DNA of 47,499 bases from NCBI GenBank assembly GCA_003565295.1, contig PXCO01000349.1, forward strand, positions 1-47,499, in the 5' to 3' direction. This stretch comes from Cyclobacteriaceae bacterium (GTDB lineage Bacteria; Bacteroidota; Bacteroidia; Cytophagales; Cyclobacteriaceae). Shown one piece after another: positions 1 to 33,153 of this stretch (the first letter of the stretch is position 1; each line of letters starts with the position of its first letter). The position numbers and the translations under genes are program-made. A model generated the notes under the pieces. It worked only from the letters and a program-made list of their open reading frames with translations, did no database searches and was not told where the DNA came from.

Positions 1-120
1 CACACAGAGGGATGATTATCAAAGCGAGATTCCACCCCGACCTGCGGTACGGGGCAGGTTCCCGAAACAAGTTCGGGACAGGTAATGACCGCTGAAAAAC
101 AAATTATAAACAGATGAAAG
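1..120. repeat. Palindromic interspersed repeat, copy 1
   Basis: This stretch matches 20729-20848 in blocks of the same order and nearly the same spacing: GGGATGATTAT (9-19), GCGAGATTCC (24-33), CAAGTTCGGG (68-77), TGACCGCTGAAAA (86-98) and a 19-base block at 101-119. It contains two small inverted repeats: ACCTGC at 40-45 pairs with GCAGGT at 54-59, and TCCCGAA at 60-66 pairs with TTCGGGA at 72-78. The element ends 13 bases before the start codon of the GAF gene, so it probably forms that gene's leader. It resembles the non-coding REP-like repeats common in Cytophagales genomes (inference); no transposase is present. Its left end may lie outside the window. Confidence 0.75.
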
Positions 121-17318: not shown

Positions 17319-17349
17319 GTACATTTAAAGGAAACCCGTCAAATTACCT

Positions 17350-17897
17350 ATGCAATCATTTGTAGCAGGAGTGCCTTGGAGGGATGAGCGTGACCTTAGG
17401 ACTCTCGTAGAAAACCGGACCACTTACACGCTGCAAGATTGTGAACTGAACATTTTTGAGACTCACCAATGGGCCTCTGCGGTGAATTTAAGTTTTGGGG
17501 ACTTGGTACTGACCACTATGTTAAAAGGGAAAAAGATCATGCATCATGCTGGAAAAATCTTATCAGCGATTGGCTAACAATAATGGAATAGCCCACCTGT
17601 TAAGTTACATCAAAGAAAATATCCGCGAAACCTTCAACTTGGAGCAAATAAGTGAAAAGGCCTGCATGAGCAAGGCGCATTTTTGCAGGATGGTCAAGCA
17701 GGAACTAGGCATTACCCCCATGGTTTATATATTACAGGAAAGACTTACCCTGGCCAAAAAACACCTTCAAATGGGGAAGTACCAAATCCAGGAAGTTTGC
17801 TACCTCTCAGGCTTTAACAATCCCACCTAATTTTATCCGATCTTTCAAACAAGAATACGGAAAAACGCCCAAGGTATTTAAGGAGAGTTGGGAATGA
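17350..17897 (+). pseudogene. AraC family transcriptional regulator, broken
   Basis: The first 65 codons ([19 protein letters not shown] to KGKKIMH) read as the start of an AraC_N-type sensor domain. The text then jumps at about 17541-17548, with a frame change, to [18 protein letters not shown] in another frame, which leads into a normal AraC DNA-binding domain (first HTH around EKACMSKAHFCRMVKQ, second around QEVCYLSGFNNPT). A second frameshift at about 17829 moves the last segment, FIRSFKQEYGKTPKVF, into a third frame ending at TGA 17895-17897. Compared with the usual length of about 300 residues some 100-150 residues of the linker are missing. It is divergent from the aldehyde dehydrogenase it presumably once controlled. 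Confidence 0.8.
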
Positions 17898-17981
17898 CCC
17901 TAAAAGAAGATTTATTATCTGTCCTAAGGGTCATCCCCATCTCCAATAAAACAATCAAAAAGAGAGAAGTACCTTTTTACG

Positions 17982-19007
17982 CTATTTGGTTGTCACCAAT
18001 TCGTAATGTTCAAGGCTTTGATAGAAATCTTCAATCACAGCGTCACGGTCGAAATTTTCCCACAAAAGGATTTTCCTGGAGTTTTCCGGTCTTTCCACCC
18101 ATTGATTATCAATAAGTATAGGTGCGGAAATGGAGCGGCTCTCACCCCAATCGGGATTTTTTAGGATGGCTGCCGCCACCATGTCGAATAAGGCCCTTGA
18201 GGGTGGGTCACCGTGATAATCTATGTGTTCGAAAAGATTTACCGCATAATCTCCAAAAGTGTGGAATTCCCCACCATGGCGGCCAACTATCGGATCCTCT
18301 ATCTTAGGTCCTTTTCCTGGCATGGTAGTGTTGATATCTTCTTGAGTGACCCTCACCGCGTCGGTACCACTAGGCTCTCCATACCTTACCGTCACCATCT
18401 CAAAGGGCACTTTGGTGTTTAATACATAATTCATGGAGACAGTGTCATTATCCTGATTGTACTCACCAGGTTTAGGGTAATTGGATCCCAACCAAACCAC
18501 CCGCATTTTTTCAGAAATTCCAGGGTCCTTTTCCAAGGCCAGTGCAACGTTGGTCAATTTTCCTACTGCAAGCAGAATTAACTCCTCTTCATGATTCCTG
18601 TTGGCATGATCAATGATAAAATCCACCCCATCTTTACCGTCAAAATCAGCTGTTACAACTTTTTCGCGAATGGTTTCAAAGTTTCCGTCTGCTCCTTTCA
18701 ACAAGGGGATTTTCCCGTGGCGCTGCCCAAGTTGCAAAATACGCTTTGCTTCCTCATAGTGTTCATCGATGTTACCACCATTCCGGGTGGCATTTACCGT
18801 CACCCCTTCAAGGTCAAATACACCACCGTTTACCAACAGATACATCAGCGCAAACTGATCATCCAACTCATTATTGGCGTCTGTGTCGTAGATGAGCCTT
18901 ACTTTTTTGCTTTGGCTTTGCTCCACTTGGCTTTCTACTTTTTTTTCTGTTTGGCAAGCCACCAAAAGGAGTATTGCCACCCCAGCAAGTAGTTGGGATT
19001 TGATCAT
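17982..19007 (-). CDS. Nucleoside hydrolase-like lipoprotein
   Basis: An inosine/uridine-preferring nucleoside hydrolase family protein (PF01156). The metal-binding start motif is present as DTDANNELDDQFAL, a variant of the classic DTDPGxDDA; LLAVGKLTNVALALEKDP and DTVSMNYVLN are also family-like. With the ATG at 19007 it begins with a short lipoprotein signal peptide (MIKSQLLAGVAILLLVAC), so the mature protein is lipid-anchored outside the inner membrane. Starts at 19037 and 19073 are also open. It would release ribose or another sugar from a riboside in the periplasm or at the surface. The variant motif makes the exact substrate uncertain. It is followed upstream by a secreted glycosidase and ribokinase. 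Confidence 0.85.
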   Translation of the reverse strand: MIKSQLLAGVAILLLVACQTEKKVESQVEQSQSKKVRLIYDTDANNELDDQFALMYLLVNGGVFDLEGVTVNATRNGGNIDEHYEEAKRILQLGQRHGKIPLLKGADGNFETIREKVVTADFDGKDGVDFIIDHANRNHEEELILLAVGKLTNVALALEKDPGISEKMRVVWLGSNYPKPGEYNQDNDTVSMNYVLNTKVPFEMVTVRYGEPSGTDAVRVTQEDINTTMPGKGPKIEDPIVGRHGGEFHTFGDYAVNLFEHIDYHGDPPSRALFDMVAAAILKNPDWGESRSISAPILIDNQWVERPENSRKILLWENFDRDAVIEDFYQSLEHYELVTTK

Positions 19008-19142
19008 TTTTAAGGATTCTTTTGTTAGTGTTTTCATATTTGAATTATTTTTTTGGGTACTACCTTGTTTCATTGGGCAAGCCTCATCGTATGAATGGAC
19101 CTGTGAGCCAAATTTTTAGCCCAGGAAGCTGAAAAATTTTCT

Positions 19143-20627
19143 TTACTTAGATTTCCTCCACCCCCCATAAGGCCACCATGGGTTGTGGTAGTAGGGGGAT
19201 TCCACGACGATTTCTTTTCCTTCCCAATTATAGGTCAGCCTTGCTTTGATCCAATGGTCTGATTCAAGAAGCTTTTCATCCAATTTTAGAGAGGCAGGCA
19301 CTTCTGTAAGTGTAGAGAAGGTTTGATGGTTAACAATCCATTCAAATTTACTTACTTCTATGGATTCAGGGCCTCCATCTATTTTCACCTCTATACTTTC
19401 CCCTATTTTTTCCGAAAAAATCAAGTCAATGGCTGGTGTCCCCACATGTCCCGTGATTTTAGCCAGTAGCTCAAAAAAGTCTCTTTTACGATCAGAGGAA
19501 ATTTGCCAATTTACCGGTACCCCTTGATATCCTTGGTTGAATTCATAATTTTCCTCTGGTCTGCGGAAATCAAAAAAGCCCCAACCTGTATAGGATTTAA
19601 CGCTAGCCACAAAATTATTCCCCGATTCATCCCATCCCTGATCTGGGTTTCTCCAAGGAATATCATCCTCGTTATTGACTAACGGCTTGGGAGTATAGAC
19701 CTCCTTTTTCCGAATTTCCTCTGATATCTCTACAATTCTATCTGGCTCTTGTACACCGTTACCATGGATGAGCACAAAATCAGAAACCTCCACAATATTG
19801 TCTGTAGGGACCCAACCCCCCGCAAGGGAGGTAGATACATATAAGGATCGGCCATCTACCTCAATCCCTTTGGCCAATGCAATAAGCTCATGTACACGAT
19901 CGCATTTTAAAATGGCGTGGTCGTATGCTCCTCCTGTACACTCATTGTTGATTTCGATCAACACATGGGTATATCCACGTAGGAGGACCCAACGGGTGGC
20001 ATCGGCCACGGCCTTTTTTACAGCTTTTTCGTCCTGTAACGTGCCGTCCTCACCAAAATAAAACAACCCCAATATTACCACCATTCCCAATTCATCAGCC
20101 CTATCCAGGATTCGTGCTGCCCTTTGCATAAATGGATCCCTGAGTGAACCATCAGGGTTAAATGCTGAATTGTCCCATGGGAAACCGCTGCAATACCCAT
20201 AAGGGCACCCCCCTTGTAGATTCAAGGTGAACCCTAACAGCCCATTTGCCCTCCAGGAGGCCATGGCCTGAACAAACTCATCTGTATTCCGGTCAGGGTC
20301 CCATTTTTCCGTATCTGGATAAGCCCATTGTGCCCGGGTAAGTGGATTCAAATCATCAAAGACACCCTGGACCATCCGGGAATTCATCAATAATCCTTCT
20401 ATCGGATACTCTTCTCCATAAGAGGTTTTCCAAACCCGCCCCTCATAAGTAGGCTTACCATTGATCAAAAATTTTTCCCCTTCAATGCTTACTGTTGTTT
20501 TTTTAGATGGGGATGAAGGTTCAATAGATTGCCCTAAAGTGGGAAGGACAGAACTAATTAGCAACAACACACTAACTATGTGTACATAATATCTGCTAAG
20601 ACCAAAGATGAAATTGAATGCTACCAT
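19143..20627 (-). CDS. Secreted clan GH-A-like glycoside hydrolase
   Basis: A 494-residue exported protein: hydrophobic segment at about residues 15-32 ending LGQ, then FLINGKPTYEGR, a typical opening of GH5-like (beta/alpha)8 hydrolases. E229 in IEINNEC is the expected acid/base (NE pair on strand 4) and E320 in PLVNNEDD is the likely strand-7 nucleophile. Residues 400-494 look like a small beta domain. I cannot name the family or substrate. It lies 136 bp upstream of the nucleoside hydrolase-like gene on the same strand, so the two may be co-transcribed. Confidence 0.75.
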   Translation of the reverse strand: MVAFNFIFGLSRYYVHIVSVLLLISSVLPTLGQSIEPSSPSKKTTVSIEGEKFLINGKPTYEGRVWKTSYGEEYPIEGLLMNSRMVQGVFDDLNPLTRAQWAYPDTEKWDPDRNTDEFVQAMASWRANGLLGFTLNLQGGCPYGYCSGFPWDNSAFNPDGSLRDPFMQRAARILDRADELGMVVILGLFYFGEDGTLQDEKAVKKAVADATRWVLLRGYTHVLIEINNECTGGAYDHAILKCDRVHELIALAKGIEVDGRSLYVSTSLAGGWVPTDNIVEVSDFVLIHGNGVQEPDRIVEISEEIRKKEVYTPKPLVNNEDDIPWRNPDQGWDESGNNFVASVKSYTGWGFFDFRRPEENYEFNQGYQGVPVNWQISSDRKRDFFELLAKITGHVGTPAIDLIFSEKIGESIEVKIDGGPESIEVSKFEWIVNHQTFSTLTEVPASLKLDEKLLESDHWIKARLTYNWEGKEIVVESPYYHNPWWPYGGWRKSK

Positions 20628-20892
20628 AACATTATTTATTCTAATTGAAATTTCTCAACGTTGATAGGTACTTGCTTTTTCGATGAAATCGAGCCTGCCT
20701 GGACGGCAGTCAGGCATTACGAGCACGTCACACACTGGGATGATTATAGACTGCGAGATTCCCCCGAAACGAGTTCCCCGAATCAAGTTCGGGGCAGGCA
20801 GGGGCAGGCTATCTGACCGCTGAAAAGAAATTATAAACAGATGAAAAGGAAAACAGGGCATAAATTGGCTATACGCACCTACCCCATCCTTC
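20628..20892. other. Intergenic region carrying repeat copy 2
   Basis: The 265-bp gap between the ribokinase stop and the glycosidase start. Apart from the repeat at 20729-20848 it has an imperfect inverted repeat GCCTG (20695-20699)/CAGGC (20711-20715) on the repeat's left flank, which may be part of the same element. No coding potential is seen. Confidence 0.6.
20729..20848. repeat. Palindromic interspersed repeat, copy 2
   Basis: Second copy of the element at 1-120. Shared blocks: GGGATGATTAT (20737-20747), GCGAGATTCC (20753-20762), CAAGTTCGGG (20784-20793), TGACCGCTGAAAA (20814-20826) and the 19-base block 20828-20846. The hairpin is better preserved here: CCCCGAA (20776-20782) pairs with TTCGGGG (20788-20794). 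It lies between two same-strand genes, after ribokinase, where the hairpin could also end ribokinase transcription. Confidence 0.75.
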
Positions 20893-21789
20893 CTATAACT
20901 CCCTCCAAAAAGGAATGGAAGATTGGGCGCCCATTTTTGTGACCGTTTGAGCAGCAGCCTTATTAGCAAAAGCCAGGGCATCCTTGAGTGACCATTTTTT
21001 TGCAATTGCCACTGCTAAGGCACCGTTAAACGTATCTCCCGCAGCAGTAGTGTCCACTGCCTTTACCTTGGGTGCAGGAAGTTGGATTTCCTCATTCCCA
21101 TCATAAAGAAAGGCCCCGTCTGCACCAAGCGTAATGATTACCACCTTCACCCCCTTCCTTAAGAACCATTCTGCAGCTATTTTTGAAGACTTCTCATCAG
21201 TTACCTTAATTCCTGTGAGGATCTCGGCTTCTGATTGATTGGGAGTGATCATGTATAGGGATTTATAAAGATCATCAGGGAGAGGAACAGCAGGAGCGGG
21301 GTTTAGTATGGTTTTTTTTCCCATTTCATAGGCCCTGGCTAATGCAAAAGAAATGGTTGATAAGGGGACTTCCAATTGTGCCAGCACTATTTCGGCAGAT
21401 TCTATCAAGCCCATCCTTTTTTCCAGATCCTCCCGGCTCAAGGCCATGTTGGCACCCGGGGCTACTACGATGCAGTTTTCCGCAGACTTGTCTACCGTAA
21501 TTTGAGCGACCCCGGAGGGCTCTTCTGGGTCAATTGCCACACCCGTGGTATCTATGCCTTCATTTTTAAGGTTTTGAATGGCCTGCTGGCCAAAAACGTC
21601 TTGCCCTACCTTGGAGATGAAAGCCACCTCACCCCCGAGTCGCGCAGCAGCTACTGCCTGATTAGCTCCTTTTCCACCGGGGTTCATCAAAAACGTGCCC
21701 CCAATTATGGTCTCTCCGGGTGCGGGAAAGTGATCTGCCACGATCACCATATCGGTGTTGGTACTTCCAATTATTAGAATTTTACCCAT
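20893..21789 (-). CDS. rbsK: Ribokinase
   Basis: A 298-residue PfkB-family sugar kinase that phosphorylates ribose to ribose-5-phosphate in the cytosol. NPGGKGANQAVAAARLG (sugar site, about residues 36-52) and AVDTTAAGDTFNGA (anion hole and catalytic base D252) are diagnostic for RbsK. ATG at 21789 is used; the TTG two codons upstream is unlikely. It stands 265 bp upstream of the glycosidase and nucleoside hydrolase genes on the same strand, which suggests salvage of ribose released from nucleosides. No transporter is adjacent. Confidence 0.93.
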   Translation of the reverse strand: MGKILIIGSTNTDMVIVADHFPAPGETIIGGTFLMNPGGKGANQAVAAARLGGEVAFISKVGQDVFGQQAIQNLKNEGIDTTGVAIDPEEPSGVAQITVDKSAENCIVVAPGANMALSREDLEKRMGLIESAEIVLAQLEVPLSTISFALARAYEMGKKTILNPAPAVPLPDDLYKSLYMITPNQSEAEILTGIKVTDEKSSKIAAEWFLRKGVKVVIITLGADGAFLYDGNEEIQLPAPKVKAVDTTAAGDTFNGALAVAIAKKWSLKDALAFANKAAAQTVTKMGAQSSIPFWREL

Positions 21790-21957
21790 GATCAATGATA
21801 GTTAGAAACCTATTTTGAGAAAGTTAACCTAAGTTTTGATAGGATAGGAAACAATTTTAGATCAAATTTATGATCTTAAATTAAAAAATATGATCATAAA
21901 AAATTGAAAATTAGACACTTAAATATTTTTTTATTATGTTTATAAAATCTTATAAAG

Positions 21958-23412
21958 ATGGCAACATTTCACACTATTGCTGCCCTGGTCAAAGGCCTTT
22001 CAAAGGCCGAGAGACGAAATATCAACAGAAACCTTGCTCTTCATTCTAAAGGCATATATGTCTGGATTTACCGATTCATTTCCCATCACCCGGACGACCT
22101 TGCCAAACTTAAAAGGGCTTTTAAAGAAAAATTTCCGGATAGTTCCTTGTCGATGGGCATAAATCATTTGTATGATCAATTGATGTATTTGATTGGAGGA
22201 ATGGAAAAATCCAGCAATCCAGAGTCCAGGATCATGTTTTATCTACAGCAAGTAAGGTTACTATATGAGCGTGGAATTTACGATGCTAGTCTTCAGATGG
22301 TGGCTAAGGCCATAGCACTGGGGGAAAAGCATGAATTATATGGCTGGCTTTTGATTTCGTTGCGGTTGAAACTGATGCTCACAACTACAACAAGATTTTA
22401 TACATTAGAGGAAAAAGAACTTTTAGCACTTTACAATGATATACAACAGACACTTAATTACCTGCACACCCAAAGCCAACATGAATTGCAATATGAATTG
22501 CTTCATATGCGTAGGACTTCCTTAAATAGCAAAAAAGGAGTAAACCCTGAAGCTGCCATTGAGGACTTGGCCATGCACGAAAAAATGGTTTTTAGCACCC
22601 CGCGTTATCAAAGCCTGGAGGCAGAAAAATTACACCTGATGTTTCAGGTAGAATACTTTCTTACATCAGGAAATACAGCCACTAGTCTAAGGGTAGCAAG
22701 CAAACTCAATGAACATTTTGATCAGCATCATTCAGTGAATTTGCAAGCTTCCCTTCATTACATCACCCATATTTGTGGTGTTTTACAGAACCTTTCTCAT
22801 GCGGGGGATTTTGGGGCAATGAGGGCCTATGAGGAAAAGCTTTATGACTATACCCAACGTAAAGGTCAGGTTCAGGGACTGGCAAATTATGCCTTACTAC
22901 ATTTCGGTTTGCAGCGGTGTATCACCTTATCCGAAATGGAGGAACTTGGCATACTCCTGGAAAAAGCCATGAGCCTAATGGAAAAACCTATACCTTCATT
23001 TGCCTGGGAATATGAAAAACTCCTTACCCTTTCGGTTGGAATTGCCCATTTCCTAAGAAAGGATATGAAAAAAGCCAACAAATATTTAAGAGGTCTAACC
23101 TATCAAAAAGCAAGTATGAACCTTGCCCCAGTGATATATACGGCTTTCATCGTTCAACTTTTAGCCTATTTTGAACAAGGGGAAATCAACCTCCTTGAAT
23201 CTAAATCACGGGCTTTTCGTCATTTGCTGAAAAAAATCGGCAATTTTGGTGCCTCGGAAAAGGAATTTATAAACACATTGCTAGGTGCCTACCCGGACTT
23301 CAAGTCCAGGTTAGGTGCAATAGCCAAGAAAGCCCTGAATTCTCATCATACCCCTGCCAAAAAGAGCCCCGTACAGCAATCTTTGGTATTTCTGCGGTGG
23401 GATAAGATATGA
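21958..23412 (+). CDS. Uncharacterised alpha-helical protein
   Basis: A 484-residue protein I do not recognise. It is rich in Leu, Lys and Glu, has no signal peptide or membrane segment, and appears almost entirely alpha-helical with recurring helix pairs of roughly TPR size. Examples are YLQQVRLLYERGIYDASLQ and the region around MVAKAIALGEKHELYGW. The start resembles DNA- or RNA-binding basic helices (KGLSKAERRNINRNLALH), and the C-terminal 40 residues are basic and probably disordered. It is divergent from rbsK across an AT-rich 168-bp gap containing ATGATC repeats. A helical-repeat scaffold or regulator is a guess only. Confidence 0.75.
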   Translation: MATFHTIAALVKGLSKAERRNINRNLALHSKGIYVWIYRFISHHPDDLAKLKRAFKEKFPDSSLSMGINHLYDQLMYLIGGMEKSSNPESRIMFYLQQVRLLYERGIYDASLQMVAKAIALGEKHELYGWLLISLRLKLMLTTTTRFYTLEEKELLALYNDIQQTLNYLHTQSQHELQYELLHMRRTSLNSKKGVNPEAAIEDLAMHEKMVFSTPRYQSLEAEKLHLMFQVEYFLTSGNTATSLRVASKLNEHFDQHHSVNLQASLHYITHICGVLQNLSHAGDFGAMRAYEEKLYDYTQRKGQVQGLANYALLHFGLQRCITLSEMEELGILLEKAMSLMEKPIPSFAWEYEKLLTLSVGIAHFLRKDMKKANKYLRGLTYQKASMNLAPVIYTAFIVQLLAYFEQGEINLLESKSRAFRHLLKKIGNFGASEKEFINTLLGAYPDFKSRLGAIAKKALNSHHTPAKKSPVQQSLVFLRWDKI

Positions 23413-29594: not shown

Positions 29595-31690
29595 ACATCA
29601 AAAGATCCATATTGTTAAGGGTGAGGTTGGCTTTTTTGCTGACCGCCGTCTTTGCTGCCGGGATATTTTACCGGATCACTCAGGTACAATTTGTGGAGGG
29701 TGAAAAATGGCGCGAGATGTCAGAAAATATTCACTTGCAACACCGGCCTGTAAAAGCTACAAGGGGAAACATCTATAGTGCCGACGGCAGCCTTTTAGCC
29801 ACCAGTTTGCCCTTTTATAGAGTGGTGATGGATCCATCCATAGCTACCGATTCCCGGTTTCAAGAAGGCATAGATTCCCTCTCCAGGAAACTGGCTGGGT
29901 TTTACAAAGACAAGTCTGCCACTGCATACGCCAGGATGATCCGGGATGCCAGGGTTTCGGGAAAAAAATACCTCATTTTGAACCGGAAACATGTAGGCTA
30001 CCAAGAAAAGCTGGAAATGGAATCCTGGCCCATTTTCCGGGATGGCAGGTTTGGAGGAGGGGTCATCTTTGAAAAAGTGGACCGTAGGTATAGGCCCTTT
30101 CGGAACCTGGCCGGCAGAACCGTTGGCTTTTTAAATGAAGATCAATACGGCGTAGGGGTGGAATACAGCTACAATGATTACCTGGAAGGGAAAAACGGCG
30201 AAGCACTATTTCAGAAAATCGCCGGTGGGGCATGGAAACCCATCCATGACACCGAAGACATTAAGCCCACTGATGGGTTTGATATCATCACTACCCTGGA
30301 TGTGAATCTTCAGGATGTGGCAGAAACAGCCCTACTTAGGCAATTGATGAACAAAGATGCCAATTTTGGCTGTGTGATCGTCATGGAAGTGGCCACAGGG
30401 CATATTAAGGCACTAGCGAACCTGGAAAAAAGCAAGAGCGGCAAAGGTTATGGTGAGTATTATAACTATGCCGTAGGAGAGCAAGGACTTACCGAGCCCG
30501 GCTCCACTTTCAAGCTTCTTTCCATGATGGCTTTATTGGAGGAAGGGAAAATCACCCTGGAAGACGTGGTGGATACCGGTAATGGGACCTATAAGTTTTA
30601 TGACCGTACCATGAGGGATGTGAAAATTGGAGGATATGGAAAAATCACAGTTAGGGAAATTTTTGAAAAATCCTCAAATGTCGGAGTTTCCAAGCTCGTG
30701 AACGAGCATTTTGGGGTGAATCCATCGAAATACCTTCACTATGTGTCCAAAGCAGGGCTTCACCAGCCCTTGGGCTTTCAGCTAAAAGGTGAAGCACAAC
30801 CCTATTTTAAAAAGCCAGGCAGCAAAAACTGGTATGGGACCACTTTGCCCTGGATGTCCATAGGGTATGAATTAAAAGTCACCCCCCTGCAAACCTTAAC
30901 CCTTTACAATGCCATAGCCAACAACGGTAAAATGGTGAAGCCTCTGTTGGTACAGACCATTAAAAGGGGCAACCAGATAGAGGAAAGTTATTCCACCGAG
31001 GTCTTGGAAAAACAGGTAGCTTCTGCAAAAACCATCGCCCAATTGAGGGAATTACTGGAAGGCGTAGTGGAAAACGGCACGGCACGGAACGTGAAAAATC
31101 AAAACTACCGCTTAGCGGGCAAAACAGGGACAGCACAGAAATTAATCAACGGGAAGTATTCCCAACTGTATTATACCTCATTTGCGGGATATTTTCCGGC
31201 AGATAACCCTAAATACAGTGCCATTGTAGTGATAGATAGCCCCAAAGGCTTCCATGCATATGGGGGGGATATTTCTGCACCTGTGTTTAAGGAGATAGCA
31301 GATAAAATACATGCACAGGACTTGACCCTTAACCATAAAAAGACAGATCCGGAAGCAAAATATGCCGACGACTTCCCATTCATACAGGCGGGCCTTACAG
31401 AGGAGCTGCAAATGATCTGTAATCAATTTGGGATATCCAACCACTATCAGGGGCATGAAAAATGGGTGAAATCCACCCTTTCCAACAAATCCATTAAATG
31501 GGTATCGAATGAAACCGAGGCACCAAAAATCCCGGACGTATCCGGAATGACGCTCAGGGATGCTTTATACCTTTTGGAAAATAAGGGGCTAAGGGTCCAA
31601 TATCAGGGAAAAGGGAGAGTGAAAAGACAATCCATATCTCCGGGGGTGCCTGTATATAAAGATCAAGTCATAAAAATTGAATTGGGATAA
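29591..31690 (+). CDS. ftsI: Septal penicillin-binding transpeptidase FtsI (PBP3) with PASTA domain
   Basis: A 699-residue class B PBP that cross-links septal peptidoglycan. An N-terminal membrane anchor covers about residues 11-28; the transpeptidase motifs are S305-TFK (EPGSTFK), SSN at 361-363 and KTGT at 511-514. One PASTA domain, IPDVSGMTLRDALYLLENKG onward (about 640-699), closes the protein, which is common in Bacteroidota and Firmicutes but absent from E. coli FtsI. It starts with GTG inside the ftsL stop and overlaps murE by one base. Confidence 0.96.
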   Translation: MNIKRSILLRVRLAFLLTAVFAAGIFYRITQVQFVEGEKWREMSENIHLQHRPVKATRGNIYSADGSLLATSLPFYRVVMDPSIATDSRFQEGIDSLSRKLAGFYKDKSATAYARMIRDARVSGKKYLILNRKHVGYQEKLEMESWPIFRDGRFGGGVIFEKVDRRYRPFRNLAGRTVGFLNEDQYGVGVEYSYNDYLEGKNGEALFQKIAGGAWKPIHDTEDIKPTDGFDIITTLDVNLQDVAETALLRQLMNKDANFGCVIVMEVATGHIKALANLEKSKSGKGYGEYYNYAVGEQGLTEPGSTFKLLSMMALLEEGKITLEDVVDTGNGTYKFYDRTMRDVKIGGYGKITVREIFEKSSNVGVSKLVNEHFGVNPSKYLHYVSKAGLHQPLGFQLKGEAQPYFKKPGSKNWYGTTLPWMSIGYELKVTPLQTLTLYNAIANNGKMVKPLLVQTIKRGNQIEESYSTEVLEKQVASAKTIAQLRELLEGVVENGTARNVKNQNYRLAGKTGTAQKLINGKYSQLYYTSFAGYFPADNPKYSAIVVIDSPKGFHAYGGDISAPVFKEIADKIHAQDLTLNHKKTDPEAKYADDFPFIQAGLTEELQMICNQFGISNHYQGHEKWVKSTLSNKSIKWVSNETEAPKIPDVSGMTLRDALYLLENKGLRVQYQGKGRVKRQSISPGVPVYKDQVIKIELG

Positions 31691-33153
31691 TGAAATTGCT
31701 CAAAGACATATTATACAAGGTATCTCTGGTTTCCGCTAAGGGGAACATGGAGACCTCTGTGCGTGAGGTGGTCTTTGACAGCAGGGCTTGTGAGCCCGGG
31801 GATTGTTTTGTGGCTATTCCGGGAACCCAGGTGGACGGTCATCAATATATGGACAGAGCACTTGAAGCAGGGGCTTCCAGCATTGTCTGCCAAACCCTAC
31901 CCGAAGCCTTTAAAGAAGGGGTCACCTATGTACAGGTCACGTATTCGGCGAAAGCACTTGGGGTGATGGCCGCAAATTATTTTGAGCATCCCTCTTCGAA
32001 GGTTTCGCTAGTGGCGGTGACCGGCACCAACGGGAAGACCACCATGGTTACCCTATTGCACCAGCTGTTCACCCAACTTGGGTATGAAACGGGACTGCTT
32101 TCCACTGTGGAAAACAAGATAGGCGAAAAGGTAATACCCGCCACCCATACCACACCTGATGCCCTTTCCATCAATTCTCTGCTCGATAGAATGGTAAAGG
32201 CAGGATGTACACATTGCTTTATGGAAGCGAGCTCCCATGCCATTGTACAGGAGAGAACGGCGGGATTGGGCTTCACTGGTGCGATTTTTACCAATATCAG
32301 CCATGACCACTTGGATTACCATGAAACCTTTGACAATTATATCAAAGCCAAAAAGAAACTCTTTGACGAATTGCCTTCAGGGGCTTTTGCCCTGGTAAAT
32401 GCGGATGACAAACGCGGGCAGGTAATGCTGCAAAACACCAAGGCAGAAAAACATACTTTCGCGCTCCGTTACCCGGCAGATTTTAAGGGAAAGATCATCA
32501 GCAATACCTTGCAGGGATTGGAACTTGAGATCAACAAGCAGTCGGTATGGTTCCGAATGATTGGGGAATTCAACGCCTACAATTTATTGGGAGTGCTCGG
32601 AACGGCTTTATTGTTGGGCGAAGATGAGGAAGAGGTGCTGATGCAATTGTCGCAATTACAAGGAGCACAGGGAAGGTTTGATCAAGTCTTTTACGGTGGG
32701 GTCACAGCCATTGTGGACTATGCACATACGCCCGACGCTTTGGAAAATGTACTGAAAACCATCCAACAGTTGAGGTCTGGAGGAGAGCAATTATTCACCC
32801 TTATCGGGTGTGGGGGAAACAGGGATAAGGGGAAGCGTCCCATCATGGCCAAAATAGCCACCCAATACAGCGACAAAGTCCTGTTAACATCAGATAACCC
32901 CAGGAATGAAGATCCCATGGATATCCTCAGCGACATGCAGGCAGGTATCAACCCCGTGGAGTTGAGAAAGACCCTGACCATAGCCGACCGAAAAGAGGCG
33001 ATCAAAACCGCCTGTGCCATGGCCAATAAAGGGGATATCATCCTGATTGCCGGAAAAGGCCATGAAACCTACCAGGAAATCAAGGGCGTGAAACACCCTT
33101 TTGATGATAAAAAGATTGTAATCGAAATGCTTAAACTAATACATACTGCCTGA
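31690..33153 (+). CDS. murE: UDP-MurNAc-L-Ala-D-Glu:meso-diaminopimelate ligase MurE
   Basis: A 487-residue Mur ligase that adds the third residue of the peptidoglycan stem in the cytosol. The ATP loop GTNGKTT is near residue 112. The DNPR motif at 402-405 is the signature of enzymes using meso-diaminopimelate rather than lysine, so this organism should have DAP-type peptidoglycan. It overlaps the genes on both sides by one base. Confidence 0.97.

Follow-up and report, generated by a model that had tools for sequence, protein, structure and literature searches.

Origin of two matching stretches

The DNA studied here (the window, 47,499 nucleotides) raises the question of why two of its stretches, positions 1-120 and 20729-20848, contain the same blocks in the same order, and what put them there. 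The window corresponds to contig C324 in the 5.62-Mb assembly of genome G000 (403 contigs). The common blocks are CACACANNGGGATGATTAT, GCGAGATTCC, CCCGAA...TTCGGG, TGACCGCTGAAAA and AAATTATAAACAGATGAA. The initial annotation described a two-copy palindromic repeat with a CCCGAA/TTCGGG hairpin, and suggested a selected structure or spread in trans by a RAYT-like transposase. Both stretches indeed have the ordered blocks and the hairpin. Moreover, both are recognized by a covariance model trained on copies from other genomes, copy 2 in two pieces and copy 1 weakly (E 0.017, 5′ end cut off). The extents first given are not those of the full element; copy 1 is cut, and copy 2 spans positions 20688-20845.

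Copy 1 (positions 1-118, + strand) lacks its left part, as judged from the block comparison and the covariance model. The truncation results from the contig edge (C324:1), which is where the window starts. From the sequence and the list of modules, it carries an inserted palindrome, CCCCGACCTGCGGTACGGGG (35-54), and a second one, CCCGAAACAAGTTCGGG (61-77). Its right-hand ATGAA occupies positions 114-118, and the ATG is 19 nt 5′ of the start codon (133) of a GAF-domain gene (133-591, + strand; Pfam and gene map). Copy 1 is therefore located in the leader of this gene, as originally annotated, and off its start codon. At 570-610, a perfect inverted repeat of 20 nt, with a loop of 1 nt, extends across the stop codon of the GAF gene; it may be a terminator that this gene has in common with the convergent gene.

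Copy 2 (20688-20845, + strand) is a complete element by its sequence and the covariance model. A left ATGAA on the target side (20683-20687) precedes it, and its terminal ATGAA is at 20841-20845. An optional palindromic module, CCTGCCTGGACGGCAGTCAGGC, lies in the region of helix P1 (20694-20715). The block GGGATGATTAT (20737-20747) is the most conserved in our alignment A1, whose collecting pattern fixed that block. It is followed by GCGAGATTCC (20753-20762), which pairing tests identify as the right arm of P1, and by two nested palindromes, read as two left halves and then two right halves (20763-20810); an identical insert occurs at locus L092. The terminal helix P5, ATCTG ... CAGAT (20811-20842), overlaps the right ATGAA and is supported by RNAalifold, pairing tests and the covariance model. 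The initial annotation correctly placed this copy between two same-strand genes. Both genes are on the minus strand and copy 2 has the opposite orientation, so that it is antisense to both neighbours. Neither window copy sits on a start codon.

The region around copy 2 was compared with G001, a genome of the same genus. Positions ~17340-23250 are ~99% identical to G001 (98.4-100% in 500-base pieces, 92% in the last piece), and the following 24 kb are mostly 70-87% identical. Judging by these identities, the tract appears to be a recent exchange between species that took copy 2 along. Such an exchange would explain why copy 2 is closer to G001 copies than to other copies in G000.

Abundance and distribution

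The repeat is two-copy only within the window. A BLAST search with copy 2 yielded at least 71 matched pieces in G000 (40 of 302 candidates scored), some of which are parts of one element. In ~558 kb of G000 sequence not centred on the first matches (L045-L048, L051-L090) there are 18 ends; this extrapolates, very roughly, to ~180 ends per 5.6 Mb, with the larger contigs of the sample having been chosen for matches elsewhere on them. Contigs C173, C23, C137 and C376 of G000 end within elements. The assembly is fragmented partly because contigs break on the repeat.

A DNA search found the element in 13 of 59 genomes including G000, all within the window's own family, in which we place G000 on account of the elements it has in common with these genomes. 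The covariance-model search, with stricter filters, covered 148 genomes in the order and found the element in 11, again including G000; four of these belong to other families. Model matches number at least 150 in G001 (every one of the 150 candidates scored), 124 in G126, 11 in G113 (some closely alike) and 4 in G077. A pattern scan of named genomes gave at least 111 stretches. The 80 that were listed come from Algoriphagus, Cyclobacterium, Lunatibacter, Pleomorphovibrio, Belliella, Mongoliibacter, Aquiflexum and Cyclobacteriaceae/Cytophagales MAGs, and Lunatibacter salilacus contributes many of them. Viral contigs had no match to one exact pattern.

Units are ~60-240 nt long. The copies seen contain no gene, in agreement with the earlier suggestion of spread in trans. 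The alternative that the blocks belong to a longer decayed gene or IS also found no support, in that the start/end listing of the examined G000 sequence includes no longer gene- or IS-bearing version.

Filled and empty sites

The initial annotation proposed looking for empty sites in relatives, and such sites exist. We sought the joined flanks of 22 G000 sites in G001. Six were readable on both sides, and the 16 further sites had a match on one side only or no match. Sites L036, L039 and L040 are filled in G000 and empty in G001. At the empty sites, G001 has an ATGAAA gene start (L039), ATTAA (L040) or no ATGAA-like letters (L036, where the filled copy is preceded by AGGAA); the non-coding stretches at L036 and L040 have diverged between the two genomes. 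The other three sites are filled in both genomes. They differ in the number of units (three against four at L028, one against two at L030) or, at L027, have one unit each with an extra insert in G001. At the G001 orthologue of the L027 site (L141, contig C3), an insert of ~180 nt breaks the element in its P2 region.

The cleanest junction seen lies in the window itself. An empty ATGAA (31690-31694, + strand) opens a Mur-ligase (murE-like) gene that lies directly 3′ of a penicillin-binding-protein gene, both assigned with Pfam. The window reads ...GGATAATGAAATTGCTC... at this site, and G001, which is filled exactly there, reads ...GGCTGATGAA[ATCGAGC...AACATATGAA]AATGCTC....

The start of murQ was compared at 31 loci, of which 30 belong to the genus of G126 and one, L227, to A. 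antarcticus. The site is empty in 17, where the upstream gene adjoins or almost adjoins murQ; 7 have ambiguous spacers and 7 have element-like inserts (L227, L327, L329, L331, L342, L344 and L350). Five of the seven inserts have a model match near the start, and those of L329 and L342 were judged by eye to be decayed. Orthologous sites that are filled in one genome and empty in another show that the element is mobile, and hence, given its lack of genes, a non-autonomous mobile element.

Boundaries, target and start codons

The main feature, which the initial annotation missed, is that copies are bounded by ATGAA and are frequently positioned at start codons. In the named genomes, the left 5-mer of non-tandem ends is ATGAA in 55 of 63 cases, and the other 8 all end in GAA. 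The right 5-mer is ATGAA in 85 of 87 cases, as located by a finder that scores similarity to TATAAACANATGAA and is therefore biased towards ATGAA. Left ends are thus the more variable in these genomes. This boundary count kept 109 rows and omitted 8 that were at an edge or had no left end. Of the 36 left ends printed for G000, 8 are not ATGAA, and GAA is missing from four of the 8. The one gene-start copy with an odd left end has GTGAA, at murQ in A. antarcticus (L227). The 30 orthologous murQ genes that were read have ATG, so this GTGAA may be a mutated target rather than the original one.

By eye, the element proper begins with ATCGAGC and ends with CANATGAA, and these ends do not form terminal inverted repeats. 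An internal TTCCAT can face the ATGAA of the left target via P1 and that of the right end via P5.

The ATG at the right end often opens a reading frame. For terminal ends in G000 it opens at least 50 codons in 26 of 50 cases, a set in which a few ends (L058, L061) are probably fortuitous matches to the motif, against 124 of 408 control sites, which are ATGAA sites with non-coding sequence upstream. For single copies in the named genomes it opens at least 60 codons in 25 of 40 cases, against 85 of 351 controls (controls drawn from 80 of the 111 element-source loci; 9 copies with too-short flanks omitted). The remaining single copies are intergenic (13/40) or possibly inside open reading frames (2/40). 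Among 20 distant copies picked by hand from the covariance-model matches, 16 stay open for 50 codons. Array-ending copies finish on the ATG of a long reading frame in roughly half of the cases or more. In two genera the element precedes an rpmH-like gene, named by eye. The family therefore has a strong lean towards start codons. This excess could reflect selection against copies at other sites, and not targeting.

Modules and arrays

Alignment A1 comprises 82 units from the named genomes, with the middle blocks fixed by the collecting pattern. A compact unit reads, from left to right, [ATGAA] ATCGAGCATGACGNNNNCGTCACACANTGGGATGATTAT...TGCGAGATTCC ATNTGACC-(A-rich loop)-ATTATAAACAN ATGAA. Longer copies have palindromic modules at three places, and it is these modules that make up the variable middle. 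A hairpin of ~24 nt (CCCGAA.CGAGTTCGGGGCAGGCT) occurs inside its own loop, so that two or three left halves precede an equal number of right halves. Of 79 parsed inserts, 37 have left and right halves in equal numbers, 15 have them in unequal numbers and 27 have neither kind; equal numbers would also fit hairpins lying side by side, and the nesting itself was read from printed sequences.

In the G000 sequence examined, module matches are almost confined to the vicinity of the element. We considered whether the inner palindromes are mobile on their own, and rejected this, as 5 of 7 modules have 0 matches away from the core and the others have 6 and 2, counts in which palindromes are counted twice.

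Elements also form tandem arrays, in which each junction has one ATGAA common to both units. Array-internal ends are 31 of the 82 ends in the examined G000 sequence.

Conserved secondary structure

Compensatory changes support three helices, P1, P2 and P5, which bears out the earlier suggestion of a conserved structure. The left arm of P1 starts beside the flanking GAA, and the right arm of P5 contains the terminal ATG. G-U pairs occur in the helices. Unaided, RNAalifold predicts only P5, with six pairs (ATNTG/CANAT and one outer pair), and in A1 42 of 82 sequences are changed on both sides of one of its pairs. For the named structure P1+P2+P5, 94.1% of cells in A1 are paired, compared with 89.2% after shuffling, and none of 500 shuffles reached its covariation score. 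Five pairs have changes on both sides, a number that 32 of 500 shuffles also reach. Sliding the partners lowers pairing to at most 42%. P2 is broken in a number of copies, with 87% and 85% of its cells paired.

Because the collecting pattern fixed the right arm of P1 in A1, this helix was tested instead on the 20 distant copies. Their arms (12 distinct pairs) form 5.33 of 6 Watson-Crick pairs on average, against 3.56 when shuffled, a value that 0 of 5000 shuffles reach; read one register off, they form 1.25 pairs. In 7 distant copies with 4 of 6 pairs, GA faces GA in the middle of the helix.

P5 pairing is kept at genes (81/94), away from genes (37/37) and inside arrays (44/51). Since it is retained off genes and within arrays, translational control alone is not a sufficient explanation of P5. 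The variable P5 position is non-Watson-Crick in 13 of 94 gene-start copies and in 0 of 37 copies away from genes. Gene-start copies may be the older ones; alternatively, a closed start codon may be disfavoured by selection through translation.

Candidate mobilizing enzymes

We examined 69 loci with genes for a Y1 transposase (63) or a reverse transcriptase (6). Model matches occur at only one, L120, ~1 kb from the Y1 gene. At L050 there is a partial element, seen by BLAST only, ~300 nt from a Y1 gene whose frame is broken. Element ends are absent from the Y1 loci examined except near L120 and L050; this sample covers part of the Y1 genes of these genomes.

Y1 genes are present in G000, in 9 of 10 element-bearing relatives and in 8 of the 10 element-bearing genomes of a 15-genome search. 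In that search, 4 of the 5 element-free genomes also have Y1 at E 0.001, one of them below the family cut-off. At the same threshold, Y1_Tnp has no match in two element-bearing genomes, G113 and G077. One Y1 query protein matched 10 of the 13 genomes with the element and 21 of the 46 others, a weak co-occurrence. Reverse transcriptase was rejected as the mobilizer, because 5 of the 10 element-bearing genomes searched (G113, G077, G071, G022 and G059) have no RVT_1 match. Overall, the searches for Y1 and reverse transcriptase found no gene that would mobilize the element. The RAYT-like mobilization put forward in the initial annotation is not borne out, as only 1 of 69 loci is linked and G113 and G077 have neither Y1 nor reverse-transcriptase matches.

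Two Y1 genes have features of their own. That at L049 (contig C161 of G000, ~780-2530) lies amid its own palindromes, CAACCCGCTTCGGGGTTGG and CAGCCCTTCGGGCTTCGG (by eye), apparently a separate REP-like system. The broken gene at L050 (~1444-1905) encodes a YILNQETHH motif like that of TnpA subclass 1.2, for which the table in PMC6006769 gives no REP.

Proposed explanation and alternatives

We think it probable that the family consists of short, non-autonomous mobile elements of Cytophagales that insert mainly at ATGAA by way of a single-stranded intermediate, with an enzyme acting in trans. The element would move in single-stranded form, whether DNA or RNA, via a head-to-tail junction (...CANATGAA/ATCGAGC...) that arrays also contain. 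Insertion would occur mainly at ATGAA. With the left GAA next to P1 and the right ATG inside P5, TTCCAT can face both junctions, and it may be a guide that defines both ends. The right end, whether ATGAA is carried by the element or is a duplicated target, would restore ATGAA behind an A-rich leader, so that insertion at a start codon would leave the gene readable and such copies could persist. Cutting would be performed by some trans-acting enzyme. The inner palindromes would grow by repeated insertion of the ~24-nt hairpin into its own loop.

A more specific version is a site finder that works by base pairing. A single TTCCAT in a single strand of 60-240 nt would pair with ATGAA both in the target and at the element's own end, and would thereby home to start codons and rebuild them, with an enzyme that is neither Y1 nor a reverse transcriptase. 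We propose this version only tentatively, and it could well be wrong.

A rather unlikely alternative is a REP- or PATE-type element moved in trans by a Y1 enzyme (TnpA, RAYT-like), with end hairpins in single-stranded DNA and a target read by a guide. Hairpins near the ends, a short target, strand-specific insertion and the lack of inverted ends all fit the logic of IS200/IS605 TnpA as set out in PMC6006769. Y1 genes are also common in element-bearing genomes, with the weak co-occurrence described above, and the Y1 gene at L050 has its partial element nearby. Against this reading are the single linked model match among the 69 Y1 and reverse-transcriptase loci, the absence of Y1_Tnp matches from G113 and G077 despite 11 and 4 copies, the Y1 genes of element-free genomes (4/5) and the different palindromes that, by eye, flank the C161 gene. 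The ~95-nt consensus, inspected by eye, also lacks a GTAG/GTGG foot. The same copies would look different as cis-regulatory RNA leaders (similar to a thermosensor or riboswitch) that are kept for gene control and whose spread is incidental. Their sense orientation at start codons, the position of P5 over the start codon, the similar loops of distant copies and the cell-wall and housekeeping-like neighbour genes are compatible with regulation, but P5 pairs equally well or better off genes and within arrays, the neighbour genes look unrelated by eye, presence varies among relatives, and copy 2 is antisense to both neighbours. In addition, the window has no Rfam family at gathering score, and five further loci gave only one match, to NsiR1, which is sub-threshold and located elsewhere. 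A regulatory leader is thus an unlikely account of the family.

Spread through RNA was weighed in two forms, namely reverse transcription or a tiny intron-like element that is spliced out with the original start codon restored. The sense strand at 5′ ends, the G-U pairs and the use of the same internal stretch at both junctions would fit. Half of the ten element-bearing genomes searched lack an RVT_1 match, however, and few copies (2/40) lie in genes, where a spliced element could sit; we regard this route as very improbable. Least credible of all is a decayed IS or piece of a gene that was multiplied solely by recombination. Arrays and the turnover of units at orthologous sites resemble the outcome of recombination, and an exchanged tract carried copy 2, but the similar ATGAA ends of many copies, the empty sites and the conserved structure speak against this reading, and the start/end listing includes no longer version.

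If the proposed non-autonomous element is correctly understood, one that inserts at ATGAA, often on a start codon, and supplies that codon again could spread through operons at little cost. Its spread could rewire 5′ leaders, as at the Mur-ligase gene among cell-wall genes, and this would alter views of leader evolution in Cytophagales. If its enzyme were found, the element would be a test case for guide-based, programmable insertion.

Comparison with known systems

We found no description of this element in the open-licence PMC literature. PATE is the name for non-autonomous elements derived from IS200/IS605. The present element has subterminal hairpins at both ends (P1/P2 and P5), as is expected of a PATE with this origin. 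Like IS200/IS605 derivatives, it is short, has no inverted ends, has hairpins near its ends, uses a short target and is strand-specific. In TnpA systems, the target interacts through its bases with an internal guide, according to PMC6006769. A PATE would be expected to have the ends of an autonomous IS200/IS605 copy and to insert 3′ of a fixed short target that is not duplicated; here the second ATGAA may be a duplicated target or part of the element. Unlike in IS200/IS605, our element mostly has ATGAA as its target, in many cases at a start codon, and one putative guide (TTCCAT) would serve both ends. Also, no autonomous copy with these ends was found, the element is not linked to Y1 and two genomes with the element lack a Y1 match. 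It is therefore IS200/IS605-like in some ways, a resemblance that stops short of showing membership in that group.

The element resembles REP/RAYT systems in being palindromic, dispersed and gene-free, with clustered copies. REPs are 21-65 nt long and have a 5′ GTAG or GTGG foot, as stated in PMC6006769. By contrast, our element is ~60-240 nt long, has ATGAA ends, lacks such a foot and does not flank RAYT genes. It thus fails key features of REP/RAYT.

MITEs and the enterobacterial RU elements are similar in that they are non-autonomous, ~100-200 bp long and intergenic, but our element differs in its lack of terminal inverted repeats. The palindromic elements of Rickettsia and Wolbachia and the GC clusters of yeast mitochondria are small palindromes, some of which insert in one another. 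The difference here is that the nesting is of hairpins inside a larger structured element.
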